Positions 5,281 to 12,392 of a stretch of 21,296 bases of DNA are shown piece by piece. The notes under the pieces were generated by a model, which saw only the letters and a list, made by a program, of their open reading frames with translations, was not told where the DNA came from and ran no database searches. The translations under genes and the position numbers were made by a program. How positions within the stretch are numbered: position 1 is the stretch's first letter; each line of letters starts with the position of its first letter. The stretch lies in the IMG/VR virus record IMGVR_UViG_3300009604_000109, positions 1 through 21,296 of that record. One strand, 5' to 3'. Source of the stretch: a virus.

Positions 5281-5515
5281 ACTAACTAAAAACTTTAAAG
5301 ATGATGTGAATGCACCTGCACATTATCTTAAAGGTAATAAAGAAACTATCGAAATCATAAAAGATATTATGACAAAAGATGAATTTCTTGGTTACTTAAA
5401 AGGTAACGTTATAAAATATGTTGCTAGATTTAGATTTAAAGGTGAACCAAAAAAAGATTTAGATAAAGCATTATGGTATTTAAATCGTTTAAACAAGGAG
5501 GTAAATAATGACTGA
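5267..5515 (+). CDS. DUF3310 protein (T7 gp1.7 C-terminal-like)
   Basis: An 82-residue protein matching the DUF3310 pattern found in many phages: APAHY (residues 16-20), an EIIK helix, GYLKGNVIKYVARF (42-55) and KDLDKALWYLNRL (63-75). T7 gp1.7, a nucleotide kinase, carries the same kind of segment in its C-terminal part (a PSHY motif, then GNILKY). This shorter stand-alone form lacks the gp1.7 N-terminal region, so kinase activity should not be assumed. A role in phage nucleotide metabolism is a reasonable inference given its neighbours. TTAGGAG (5255-5261) marks the ATG at 5267. It overlaps the phosphoesterase gene by 14 bases and the next gene by 8. Confidence 0.88.
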   Translation: MVRNRLTKNFKDDVNAPAHYLKGNKETIEIIKDIMTKDEFLGYLKGNVIKYVARFRFKGEPKKDLDKALWYLNRLNKEVNND

Positions 5516-5753
5516 TATAAATAAAGCAGCACCAAAAACAAAACCAGAACCAGATGTACGAGAACCAGTTTACTTAGTATCTGGATCAGTACTACAAGAT
5601 CTTATGAGATATTTAATGTCTCGTCCATATGGTGAAGTTGTAAAGTTAATGTCGATATTAGCTAGACTTTCTCAACTGGATCCTAATATTAGTCCAAGTT
5701 TTGTAAAACGTCCACAAGATGAGAAATCTGCCAAAAATAAACCAGCTCAGTAA
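5508..5753 (+). CDS. Small protein, unknown function (81 aa)
   Basis: Unrecognised. The N-terminus is Pro/Lys-rich (residues 7-20). The middle is a hydrophobic amphipathic stretch with LQDLMRYLMS and VVKLMSILARL (about 29-54), which suggests two short helices and perhaps a small oligomeric fold, and the tail is Lys/Gln-rich and polar. AAGGAGG at about 5496-5502 precedes the ATG, so translation is well supported. It overlaps the DUF3310 gene by 8 bases and is the last gene before the structured gap at 5754-5886. Confidence 0.7.
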   Translation: MTDINKAAPKTKPEPDVREPVYLVSGSVLQDLMRYLMSRPYGEVVKLMSILARLSQLDPNISPSFVKRPQDEKSAKNKPAQ

Positions 5754-5803: not shown

Positions 5804-5886
5804 CATAGACTACCCCCCCATATACAACTCTTCTTTAAGGGCCTCTCAGACCCCGTAATTAACGTTTTATAGTTTAGGAGTATGAA

Positions 5887-8385: not shown

Positions 8386-9714
8386 TTAAGTTTGTTTAGT
8401 TAATCCCGTATCTTGTGTTTTTATTCCTAATTTTTTCAGATTGTCCATAACTATATCAGATAATCCTCCTGTTTTATTTGATGCAACAAATACTCCTTCC
8501 ATGTTGGTAGGAAGAAATGATTGTTCTTCAACCTCTGGTGCACCTGGTGGTGTAACTGTTTGAGTTGTAGGTTTAGGTTGAGGTACAGGAGCTGTAGTTT
8601 CCGTTGATCTAAGATAAGGTTTTCCTGGATATGCACCAATAACAATAGGAGTTCCGTATGCTGTTGTTCCTCTTTTATCAATTCCTGGACTAGTATCTAA
8701 TTGTCTATTTAATGCAGGATTTACTATTGCACCTTCTAGACCTCCAGCGGCACGTGGTGCAGAACTTCTAAGTCCGCTTTCTGGAATATCAGATTCTAAT
8801 ACAGGTATGTCACTTGTAGTTGTAGTATCCTCTGCTAAATTTCTTAAATCCTGTAAAGATAATGAATTAAGAAGGTTAAGAGTATCCTTTCCTTCAGCTG
8901 TAGTTGTATCAAATCCACCTGAAAGAAAATCCAAATAGGATTGTTTTTCACCAGTTAATTCTGGTGGTGCTTGTTCTGCTGAAACTTGCGTACCAGCCTG
9001 CCCAAGCATATTATTTGTTTGTTTATTAATGTCATTCTCTGCCATTGTAATATCACCCTCCATAATTTGTGATTGTAAGTTTAATGGTTCTATTCTTTTA
9101 AACCAAAGACTGCGTAAAGTTCTTCTATATTTTCCTGGATTTTCATTATATTTTGTTTGACCTATTGCATCTATAAAATCTTCTGTTGTATTTGCCGTTA
9201 GTAATGAATTTTTAAAAGGAATCATATTATCACTAGAAAGAGCAAAATTAATAAACCCATGAATATTATCTTCAAAAGAATTAAATTGTCTTAAATAGGC
9301 GGAATCTCCATTTATTGTTCTAATACCAGTTTCTTTATTTCCATGCATTCCAAGAAAGTTGTTTGCTTTTTTTGCTGTAGGTCCACCTTCAAATCCTCCC
9401 CATCCAGATTCATTTGCCATTAATGTTGCAAGAAAATTAGAAAATGCTTTAGGATTTTTTATTATATCCTTATAATCTCTTTTAACAGTATCTTCTATCG
9501 TTTTACTAGAATTTATTACAAAATCTTTTTTCCATTGCTCATAATTTAAATTAGGTGCTAAATCTTCTGGTTTAGGAATAGGTGTAGGAACTATTAATTT
9601 ATCAGTCTGTTCGTTGACTGTAAATTCTTTCTGTGGCCCAACACTAATATTTTCAGCCATAACAATTTGACTCCATAATAATAAAATTAAAATAAATCTA
9701 GTAAGAATATACAA
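8386..9714 (-). CDS. Secreted glucosaminidase-domain protein with long low-complexity tail (442 aa)
   Basis: A peptidoglycan hydrolase candidate. Residues 1-20 form a signal peptide (MYILTRFILILLLWSQIVMA) with likely cleavage after Ala20. Residues about 75-212 resemble the mannosyl-glycoprotein endo-beta-N-acetylglucosaminidase (Bax/FlgJ-type) fold: ANESGWG with Glu102 as candidate catalytic acid, NNFLGM (118-123), AYLRQFNSFEDNI (139-151) and KYNENPGKYRR (188-198). After residue 215 the sequence turns into a Pro/Thr/Ser/Gly-rich tail unlike an enzyme. The start codon is TTG: there is no in-frame ATG upstream, and the first internal ATG (Met19) would remove the signal peptide. It overlaps the M15 peptidase gene by 17 bases. 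The tail could be a separate product (see the internal start at 9043-9061). It may be a virion-associated lysin or a second lysis enzyme. Confidence 0.75.
   Translation of the reverse strand: MYILTRFILILLLWSQIVMAENISVGPQKEFTVNEQTDKLIVPTPIPKPEDLAPNLNYEQWKKDFVINSSKTIEDTVKRDYKDIIKNPKAFSNFLATLMANESGWGGFEGGPTAKKANNFLGMHGNKETGIRTINGDSAYLRQFNSFEDNIHGFINFALSSDNMIPFKNSLLTANTTEDFIDAIGQTKYNENPGKYRRTLRSLWFKRIEPLNLQSQIMEGDITMAENDINKQTNNMLGQAGTQVSAEQAPPELTGEKQSYLDFLSGGFDTTTAEGKDTLNLLNSLSLQDLRNLAEDTTTTSDIPVLESDIPESGLRSSAPRAAGGLEGAIVNPALNRQLDTSPGIDKRGTTAYGTPIVIGAYPGKPYLRSTETTAPVPQPKPTTQTVTPPGAPEVEEQSFLPTNMEGVFVASNKTGGLSDIVMDNLKKLGIKTQDTGLTKQT
9043..9061 (-). promoter_or_regulatory. Possible internal translation start (GGAGGG + ATG)
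   Basis: On the minus strand GGAGGG (9061 to 9056) stands 10 bases before an in-frame ATG (9045-9043) that begins MAENDINKQ, residue 224 of the glucosaminidase-domain protein. The ATG lies at the boundary between the enzyme domain and the low-complexity tail, so a separate 219-residue protein (9045 to 8386) could be made. The spacing is slightly long for an optimal site. Confidence 0.35.
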
Positions 9715-10087
9715 CTTGAGGAAGATTAGTATATGCAGTTCGTAAATCTATATGTATAAAAGTTTTTGCTATACCTACACTAAAATTTCTATTTAAGGCA
9801 ACCTTAATAAGTTGGGCAGCATACGCTCCATCTTTTCTTTTAACATCTACTGCGCAAGTATCTGTTCCGTATTTATTATTATCTATTAGATGGAAACTAT
9901 TTGAACTTGCAGGATAGCCACGACCTTGTAGCCATTCGTTATGTTCATCAGTTCTACACCCACTTGTTATAATCATAGATTGATTAAACTCTTCTCGTAA
10001 AGCATCAAGAGCATCACCAAATCCATCTTGTAATTTAAATTGCCCAGTAGTAGGGCATTTTAATTCATCTTCTGTAAAGTATTTCAT
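9698..10087 (-). CDS. M15-family peptidase endolysin (129 aa)
   Basis: A zinc D-Ala-D-Ala/L-Ala-D-Glu-type peptidase of the Peptidase_M15_3 kind, the usual small phage endolysin that cuts peptidoglycan stem peptides. Motifs: SGCRTDEHN (residues 42-50; Arg45), SFHLIDN (64-70; His66), AVDVKR (79-84; Asp81) and FIHIDLR (110-116; His112, Asp114). His66, Asp81 and His112 are the expected zinc ligands, and Asp114 lies in the conserved HxD. There is no signal peptide, so it needs a holin, and a holin-like gene lies two genes upstream (the 55-residue Cys-rich gene is between). The length matches the family. It overlaps the glucosaminidase-domain gene by 17 bases. Confidence 0.9.
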   Translation of the reverse strand: MKYFTEDELKCPTTGQFKLQDGFGDALDALREEFNQSMIITSGCRTDEHNEWLQGRGYPASSNSFHLIDNNKYGTDTCAVDVKRKDGAYAAQLIKVALNRNFSVGIAKTFIHIDLRTAYTNLPQVVYSY

Positions 10088-11276: not shown

Positions 11277-11680
11277 CAGTTACTTCCATTAGCAAATTGT
11301 CTTTGCTTATCTTTTAATTTCTCTACATCCTGTTGTAGTTTATTTACAGCTTTATCCAAAGCTGAAATATTTACCTCATTGTGTAGCATTGAATCTACTC
11401 GTATTTGTAATTTATCCATTTGTTTATAAAGTTCTTCAATTAACATAAATTGTTCTGAATCGGCTGGAAGCGACCCTAAAAGACCACGAGGCCATTTGAT
11501 TCTAAAATCTGTATTCATCACTACATCTTTATCCATAATTTCTAACTTCGTTGAATGTTGGTTTAATTTTTCCTGAATACCGAAAAAAGCCCATGTTCCG
11601 ATTGCGACTAACGTTATAAGGCTAGCAACTGTTTTCATTGGCATTTGTACTTTAGCTTCGTCTGAAATTTTTAATGCCAT
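11276..11680 (-). CDS. Membrane-anchored coiled-coil protein, possible i-spanin (134 aa)
   Basis: One transmembrane helix (about residues 17-34) follows a short polar N-terminus. Then comes a conserved-looking central block, NTDFRIKWPRGLLGSLPAD (56-74), with many Glu/Lys/Leu residues up to residue 128, which form heptad-like repeats (coiled coil). The N-in, C-out topology with a periplasmic coiled coil is what an i-spanin needs, and a lipoprotein gene follows two genes downstream. The WPRG-LGSLPAD block is not a spanin feature I know. I recall it as recurrent in marine phages, so a virion-linked role is possible. AAGGAG is 6 bases before the ATG. It overlaps the 78-residue gene by 10 bases. 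Confidence 0.7.
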   Translation of the reverse strand: MALKISDEAKVQMPMKTVASLITLVAIGTWAFFGIQEKLNQHSTKLEIMDKDVVMNTDFRIKWPRGLLGSLPADSEQFMLIEELYKQMDKLQIRVDSMLHNEVNISALDKAVNKLQQDVEKLKDKQRQFANGSN

Positions 11681-11907
11681 ACTACTCCTTGTATATTTTT
11701 TTCTCGTTTATCACAATAAAATGACACCATATAACCATATTCATTTATAATTTTAACACCAAACTTCTCAGTCAAATCATTCCACATTTCCGAGACTTTT
11801 ATATATCCTGCGGTACTACAAGAATAATAGTCGAAATATTTTGTTTCCATTTCTCCTCCAGTACATCCTAGAGCCGAGCAAATTCGTAGCATTAAAACCC
11901 AAGACAT
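11671..11907 (-). CDS. Small Cys-containing exported-type protein, unknown function (78 aa)
   Basis: The N-terminus is hydrophobic (MSWVLMLRICSALGC), followed by DYYSC (26-30), STAGYIKVSE (31-40) and VSFYC (61-65). The four cysteines (10, 15, 30, 65) could form two disulphides outside the cytoplasm. The pattern 'hydrophobic start, two close Cys, YxxC..GY..S, FYC near the end' recurs, from memory, in small proteins of pelagiphages and other marine podoviruses, with no known activity. Its ATG overlaps the stop of the 16-residue KKPKPY gene by one base (TAATG), so its translation likely depends on that tiny gene. Confidence 0.65.
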   Translation of the reverse strand: MSWVLMLRICSALGCTGGEMETKYFDYYSCSTAGYIKVSEMWNDLTEKFGVKIINEYGYMVSFYCDKREKNIQGVVWH

Positions 11908-11957
11908 TAGTATGGTTTTGGTTTCTTATATGGTTTTGGTTTTTTTATAGTATTCAT
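11907..11957 (-). CDS. 16-residue Lys/Pro/Tyr tandem-repeat peptide
   Basis: A 16-codon gene encodes MNTIKKPKPYKKPKPY, two perfect KKPKPY hexapeptides. GGAGAAAGG is directly upstream of the ATG at 11957. Its TAA overlaps the next ATG by one base (TAATG). The two 18-base DNA copies differ at two positions, AAA/AAG (Lys) and TAT/TAC (Tyr), and both changes are synonymous, which points to selection on the peptide. The 5' half overlaps the end of the zinc-ribbon gene in another frame. It is strongly basic (six Lys) and, with four prolines, probably extended. It could bind DNA, RNA or an acidic partner, or act as a leader peptide setting translation of the 78-residue gene. Confidence 0.6.
   Translation of the reverse strand: MNTIKKPKPYKKPKPY
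11911..11942. repeat. 18-base-period direct repeat (codes KKPKPY twice)
   Basis: TATGGTTTTGGTTT occurs at 11911-11924 and at 11929-11942 (plus-strand reading), one 18-base period apart. It is the DNA basis of the hexapeptide repeat in the 16-residue minus-strand gene and probably arose by slippage or local duplication. Confidence 0.85.
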
Positions 11958-12066
11958 TCCTTTCTCCATTACAACACGGATAAATATTGTTTTTACAATG
12001 TTCACATTGTATATGCCCATGTACCCAGATTAATAGTGTATGTTTATTGCACCAGGTACAGAGCAT
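11926..12066 (-). CDS. Zinc-ribbon miniprotein (46 aa)
   Basis: Residues 1-32 hold two metal-binding knuckles, CTWC (Cys3, Cys6) and CEHC (Cys21, Cys24), plus Cys31-Cys32 and several His (9, 16, 18, 23). CxxC-14-CxxC is a classic small zinc-ribbon layout, with Trp5 and Trp14 packing. The C-terminus is basic (YYKKTKTI). It starts 4 bases after the stop of the 35-residue membrane gene and has no clear Shine-Dalgarno sequence, so it would depend on re-initiation. The last 32 bases are shared, in a different frame, with the KKPKPY gene. Possible roles include nucleic-acid binding or modulation of host transcription or translation. No specific target can be read from sequence. Confidence 0.6.
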   Translation of the reverse strand: MLCTWCNKHTLLIWVHGHIQCEHCKNNIYPCCNGERNEYYKKTKTI

Positions 12067-12070
12067 TTAA

Positions 12071-12178
12071 TTAAGCTATAAGTGCAATAACAATAATTGC
12101 TGCTGCAAGGCAAACACAAATAGTAAGTTTTCTATTGTTTTGCCATGCTTCTATACAGAATCCTTTTATAATTTCCAT
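12071..12178 (-). CDS. Single-helix membrane miniprotein (35 aa)
   Basis: The start is well marked: GGAGG lies inside the end of the preceding gene, whose stop TAA (12182-12180) is directly followed by AATGG. A polar/amphipathic N-terminus (residues 1-17, with Arg16-Lys17) precedes one transmembrane helix (about 18-35: Leu, Ile, Val, Ala, two Cys) ending at the C-terminus. It sits among lysis and membrane genes, so it may be a pinholin-like or antiholin-like peptide, but nothing specific is recognised. Confidence 0.6.
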   Translation of the reverse strand: MEIIKGFCIEAWQNNRKLTICVCLAAAIIVIALIA

Positions 12179-12179
12179 T

Positions 12180-12392
12180 TTATCCTCCAAATATATTTGT
12201 TTGTATAAGCCATAGTAATTGACTAAGCACTCCTACAAATACAACCCATAGTACTTTTTGTATTTGACATATCTTATAATCAAGATGTTTTAAATGATTA
12301 TTTTTTATATTGTTTATATCGTTTTTTATAACTTTTAATTCACCTTGAACTTCTATAATAGCCTCTCTATTTGTTCTTGTTATGCGTGTCAT
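12180..12392 (-). CDS. Coiled-coil protein with C-terminal membrane anchor (70 aa)
   Basis: The N-terminal half (residues 8-34) has heptad-like spacing (IIEVQGELKVIKNDINNIK), followed by a HLKHLDYKI segment and one C-terminal transmembrane helix (about 47-65, VLWVVFVGVLSQLLWLI). This layout, a short coiled coil then a membrane helix with almost nothing after it, resembles the XhlA-type phage lysis accessory proteins, though the match is loose. It starts 4 bases after the 1471-residue gene. The ribosome site is poor, so translation may be coupled to that gene. Confidence 0.65.
   Translation of the reverse strand: MTRITRTNREAIIEVQGELKVIKNDINNIKNNHLKHLDYKICQIQKVLWVVFVGVLSQLLWLIQTNIFGG

Follow-up and report, generated by a model that had tools for sequence, protein, structure and literature searches.

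A 16-codon Lys-Pro reading frame as a candidate translated minigene in a marine phage operon

Genes as short as KP16, a 16-codon open reading frame (ORF) in a phage operon, lie below annotation cut-offs. Is this frame a gene, or a by-product of the sequences that surround it? A sequence-only reading of the window (the whole stretch of 21,296 nucleotides analysed here) had proposed a tiny translated gene for a tandem KKPKPY peptide. That proposal is still the best reading, on grounds that are partly other than those given at the time. KP16 appears to be a translated marine-phage minigene that would pass ribosomes to the next gene, p78, with a probability of roughly one half. That the KKPKPY frame is translated in some form, whether as a minigene or as the tail of a zinc-ribbon protein, is judged likely.

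The reading frame, its repeat and its codons

KP16 opens with ATG at 11957, preceded by GGAGA at a spacing of 5, and closes with TAA ending at 11907. Between them it reads AAT ACT ATA, then AAA AAA CCA AAA CCA TAT and AAG AAA CCA AAA CCA TAC, which agrees with the 16-codon KKPKPY frame first described and with its count of six Lys and four Pro. The coordinates of the locus are collected in Table 1.

Table 1. Features of the KP16 locus, in positions of the window
Feature	Positions	Strand	Description
p78	11671..11907	minus	Next gene (78 aa), without a Shine-Dalgarno site of its own
KP16	11907..11957	minus	16-codon ORF, MNTIKKPKPYKKPKPY followed by a stop; TAATG, in which its stop and the next start share an A
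Tandem 18-nt copies	11910..11945	minus	AAAAAACCAAAACCATAT and AAGAAACCAAAACCATAC (KKPKPY twice), matching at 16/18 positions
A7 run	11940..11946	minus	Removal of one A fuses zn46 to the KKPKPY repeat (ending in NGERNEYYKKPKPYKKPKPY and a stop)
Shine-Dalgarno-like site	11958..11967	minus	GGAGAAAGGA; site of KP16 and codons of the conserved Gly-Glu of zn46
zn46	11926..12066	minus	Zinc-ribbon gene, MLCTWCNKHTLLIWVHGHIQCEHCKNNIYPCCNGERNEYYKKTKTI followed by a stop
35-aa ORF	12071..12178	minus	MEIIKGFCIEAWQNNRKLTICVCLAAAIIVIALIA; single transmembrane segment, strong Shine-Dalgarno site, immediately upstream of zn46
70-aa gene	12180..12392	minus	Coiled-coil/transmembrane; resembles gp51 of Pelagibacter phage HTVC033P and is syntenic with it

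The two repeat copies differ, as had been observed, solely at synonymous positions: both differences (A/G and T/C) fall in third codon positions. Close tandem matches with periods of 12-45 are confined in the window to one of period 12, elsewhere, and that of period 18 in KP16; no period-18 match arose in 40 second-order Markov simulations with the same trinucleotide make-up. The silence of the changes was described as unexpected for a noncoding repeat. Both changes are indeed silent, but the pattern is only modestly surprising, and the synonymy taken alone is weak evidence because the chance that both would be silent is 0.028 if they are random and 0.098 if they are transitions, which is the case here. 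Likewise, the description ‘conserved at codon level’ is true between the two copies within KP16 and nowhere beyond them.

The codon score of the KP16 segment NTIKKPKPYKKPKPY ranks at the 46th percentile of segments read in frame from the genes of this phage and exceeds that of every sampled out-of-frame segment. Codon score and synonymy occur jointly with P = 0.0008 (0.08% of open frames) under a null in which the unit was shuffled, duplicated and given two changes, conditional on an open frame. The score is an aid and no proof, since the zinc-ribbon core, which is proven coding sequence, itself scores poorly on the same measure.

Relatives of the locus were sought in viral contigs and named phages, where no second phage with a KP16 locus and no homologue of KP16 were found. 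In the viral contigs, the tandem KKPKPY pattern gave 0 matches, and searches with the p78 core and with the C-terminus of the 1471-aa gene yielded no second copy of the locus. A tblastn search of named phages with zn46 and KP16 returned nothing useful, and loci drawn in via the 134-aa neighbour do not share the small-gene block.

A possible ribosome site within the zinc-ribbon gene zn46

The start of KP16 falls inside zn46, a gene missed by the earlier reading, with the motif C-x2-C...VHGHxQC-x2-C...PCCxGE. The last 32 nt of zn46 are shared with KP16 and read in another frame; elsewhere on the minus strand of the window, overlaps measure only 1-17 nt. Both GGAGAA and AATGAA arise from the coding of G-E-R-N-E in zn46. 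The ‘strong ribosome site’ claimed for KP16 is present as a Shine-Dalgarno-like GGAGAA, but it is of moderate strength (duplex folding gives -6.4 kcal/mol, against 0 to -12.6 for other sites of the operon) and also encodes the conserved Gly-Glu. Among zinc-ribbon relatives, 63 of 86 have a Shine-Dalgarno-like core at this position, and 24 of 86 have GGAGAA or GGAGAG. The ribosome-site argument for KP16 is weakened because GGAGAA represents the Gly-Glu codons of the family; judging by these relatives, the site is to be expected from the protein code of zn46 and is by itself no evidence for KP16, whose start signals may be incidental to zn46 coding.

The region is also overlapped by a plus-strand ORF (11841-12074), a reading that was rejected because the surrounding operon lies on the minus strand. 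An AlphaFold model of zn46 (mean pLDDT 76) had no PDB match at E <= 0.001, the top-ranking chains belonging to ribosome entries with E > 1, and the predicted structure adds no function.

Viral contigs yielded at least 119 matches to a degenerate zinc-ribbon pattern, and the comparison covered 91 distinct relatives. Twelve columns are invariant over 22 aligned members (C-x2-C...HGHxQC-x2-C-x5-PCCxG, with E usually next). The search pattern itself dictated part of the HGH, Q, C and PCC columns; the first two Cys and the G owe nothing to it. All 12 columns are found in zn46, which thus belongs to the family. No Pfam, PHROG or NCBIfam model scored above threshold for it. This widespread, unnamed phage family comprises zn46 and loci L089-L288, with further members in Bacteroidota metagenome-assembled genomes (MAGs; L289-L299). 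The latter were the only relatives recovered by a pattern scan of genome contigs, and their tails are mostly short.

In 33 of the 91 relatives, a long next gene begins out of frame with an ATG 8 to 22 nt past the PCC codons, and in six the start lies at +13 nt, as in KP16. These next genes encode 45-228 aa and are of several unrelated kinds. Because a long gene begins there in a third of the relatives compared, a second gene starting from the Gly-Glu codons is read as a recurrent architecture, and KP16 occupies that start position. Examples of an out-of-frame gene starting in the last zinc-ribbon codons are L101, L103, L105, L117, L110 and L102, among others; the Gly-Glu codons apparently serve as the ribosome site of the next gene, and overlaps extend to about 60 nt or more.

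The junction with p78 and competing explanations

The TAATG overlap between KP16 and the 78-aa gene had been noted earlier and is real. The best Shine-Dalgarno duplex of p78 reaches only -1.2 kcal/mol. Its start is backed by a homologue in L059 that is 72% identical with the same N-terminus; an alternative start at METKYF (11850) was rejected, as L059 keeps the longer N-terminus. Among 17 minus-strand junctions, the gap of 18 nt between zn46 and p78 is the largest; the rest span -17 to +16, the majority lying between -4 and +4. A start that lacks a Shine-Dalgarno site and lies 18 nt from the last stop, as p78 would be without KP16, is seen at no other junction here. Reading KP16 as a gene narrows this gap to -1 nt, and the pair then shows the two marks of reinitiation, a stop at the next start and a Shine-Dalgarno-poor downstream start. 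In an experimental study, reinitiation drops steeply across such distances, with a distance of +14 nt lowering it by 40-80% in native E. coli gene pairs (PMC10666635).

This arrangement suggests a mechanism. Ribosomes would initiate at the ATG of KP16 from the site embedded in the Gly-Glu codons, translate 16 codons in a frame other than that of the zn46 tail, stop at TAATG and then reinitiate on p78. One role of KP16 is therefore probably, on this geometry, a translational hand-over to p78. We infer from its charge that nucleic acid, or some other acidic surface, is the probable binding partner of the product, an extended and strongly basic Lys-Pro peptide.

The operon runs from the 70-aa gene through the 35-aa transmembrane ORF, zn46, KP16 and p78 to the 134-aa gene. 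By DNA polymerase, the closest named phage is HTVC033P (68.6% identical), a Pelagibacter phage belonging to the HMO-2011-type group and discussed in a study of these phages (PMC9038755); further top matches are CRP-series Roseobacter phages and Puniceispirillum phage HMO-2011. In HTVC033P, gp51 sits in the same place as the 70-aa gene, after the large virion gene, and the KP16 block is absent. Elsewhere on the minus strand of the window, a 442-aa gene with a glucosaminidase domain (8386-9714; Pfam E 8.6e-8) lies beside an M15 peptidase (9698-10087), the pair forming two adjoining putative cell-wall hydrolases. This AT-rich phage sequence also contains G7 and C7 runs (1046-1052 and 5813-5819); one of them lies between genes, the other in frame inside the gene for DNA polymerase.

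Three other explanations compete with the minigene. The repeat may be noncoding, an A-rich tandem duplication in the 3′ end of zn46, which is free to vary, and in the 18-nt spacer before p78, with the ribosome site and ATG as by-products of G-E-R-N-E coding and the synonymous pattern as chance. This is unlikely, though it is the strongest of the three. The conserved Gly-Glu motif with its recurrent GGAGAA or GGAGAG, GERN encoded also in two relatives (L190 and L271), tails past PCCxGE that vary freely in the family, and a synonymy that alone has a P of just 0.03-0.10 are all consistent with it. It has to accept, however, a combination of codon score and synonymy that is improbable in the shuffle null, and it leaves p78 with a start unmatched at the other junctions.

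A rather doubtful alternative, which the sequence-only reading had not considered, makes the repeat the C-terminal tail of the zinc ribbon, cut off by one extra A in the A7 run, which could be a mutation, an error of assembly or a slippage site. If the run were A6, the protein would end in PCCNGERNEYYKKPKPYKKPKPY and a stop on the TAATG of p78, and there would be no minigene. The fusion yields a 1-nt overlap, as elsewhere in the operon, and accounts for the TAATG junction equally well; without the A, repeat homology also runs three bases further left (TAT/TAT), and the register AAA AAA A could slip +1. Yet 28 other homopolymer runs of at least 7 lie in genes and leave them intact, so the window sequence is not error-prone. 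Nor does any zinc-ribbon relative carry a KKPKPY-like tail, and the family-typical start position of KP16 would be left as coincidence. Finally, it is most improbable that KP16 is a nonfunctional, truncated N-terminal remnant of a longer gene behind zn46, cut by insertion of p78. The unrelated families of next genes in this position fit such a history, as does the reshuffled module implied by L059, where the p78 homologue follows an M15-peptidase-like gene. A whole small gene better suits the tandem unit and exact TAATG junction, and a next gene with the N-terminus of KP16 is not seen among the relatives.

The translated minigene is thus supported by its synonymous copies, codon score, shared start position with next genes of relatives, junction with p78 and Lys/Pro-rich counterparts in unrelated marine phage contigs. 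Against it stand the absence of a homologue in the searches, the possibly incidental start signals, the 32-nt overlap and the Lys/Pro enrichment described below being post hoc, with a single lineage supplying three of its five cases.

Lys/Pro-rich mini-ORFs and known systems

ORFs of 10-30 codons were scanned in 1.76 Mb of fetched loci. Of the 75 that have a leading Shine-Dalgarno site and a directly joined next ORF of 55 codons or more, 5 are rich in Lys, Arg and Pro, compared with 53 of 14,689 others (Fisher P = 1.1e-5, or 1.9e-4 without the window); these P values are only indicative, because the test was framed after L105 had been seen and the loci were not randomly drawn. The five cases are KP16, L105 (MRKPKPTKPKPVRRPKPYGR), L133 (MLQIDSKKKSKPKPPRY), L101 and L113 (MPGQHYGMPKPKKKKKKK, also with TAATG). 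L105, L133 and L101 represent one lineage and one slot behind a terminase-like gene, where divergence among the small basic ORFs is rapid. The same slot is seen in L105 (minus strand, reverse complement 5512-5574), L133 (3155-3208), L101, L157, L129, L179 and L182; many of its small Lys/Pro-rich ORFs end in a basic stretch and Tyr, and L182 has tandem KYDPKKK-type repeats.

It is tentatively suggested, as a rather unlikely generalization, that marine phages carry a class of fast-evolving, Lys/Pro-rich minigenes of 16-25 codons, always joined to the next gene, in which both the peptide and the ribosome hand-over matter. Should this doubtful class exist, KP16 would be its smallest member and one that starts within the conserved codons of another gene. 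If KP16 is translated, phage operons conceal basic microproteins that at the same time determine how adjacent genes are expressed, and the codons of a conserved protein motif, Gly-Glu, serve in addition as the ribosome site of a second gene. About one in three of the zinc-ribbon relatives would then show this simple form of overlapping information.

KP16 is probably a real gene, of a kind that is overlooked but not unprecedented. Within the PCCxGE zinc-ribbon family, to which zn46 belongs, it takes the slot of the usual overlapping next gene; the difference is one of size, as that gene, where present, encodes 45-228 aa and KP16 only 16. Termination-reinitiation pairs with overlaps of -1 or -4 nt (PMC6728339, PMC10666635) share with KP16/p78 the TAATG and a downstream gene without its own Shine-Dalgarno site. 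In contrast to such pairs, the upstream partner has just 16 codons and starts inside another gene, and we infer the coupling here. The marine-phage mini-ORFs L105, L133, L101 and L113 are similarly led by a Shine-Dalgarno site, 17-25 codons long, Lys-Pro rich and joined to the next gene. They occupy other genomic slots with other neighbours and have nothing alignable to KP16 beyond the KP motif; their resemblance appears to be in kind only. Regulatory minigenes offer a further parallel as very short ORFs within an operon; the minigene of the axe-txe operon is reported to influence translation of a neighbour (PMC8708949). Its sequence is unrelated to that of KP16, which encodes a repeated basic peptide and sits between phage genes.
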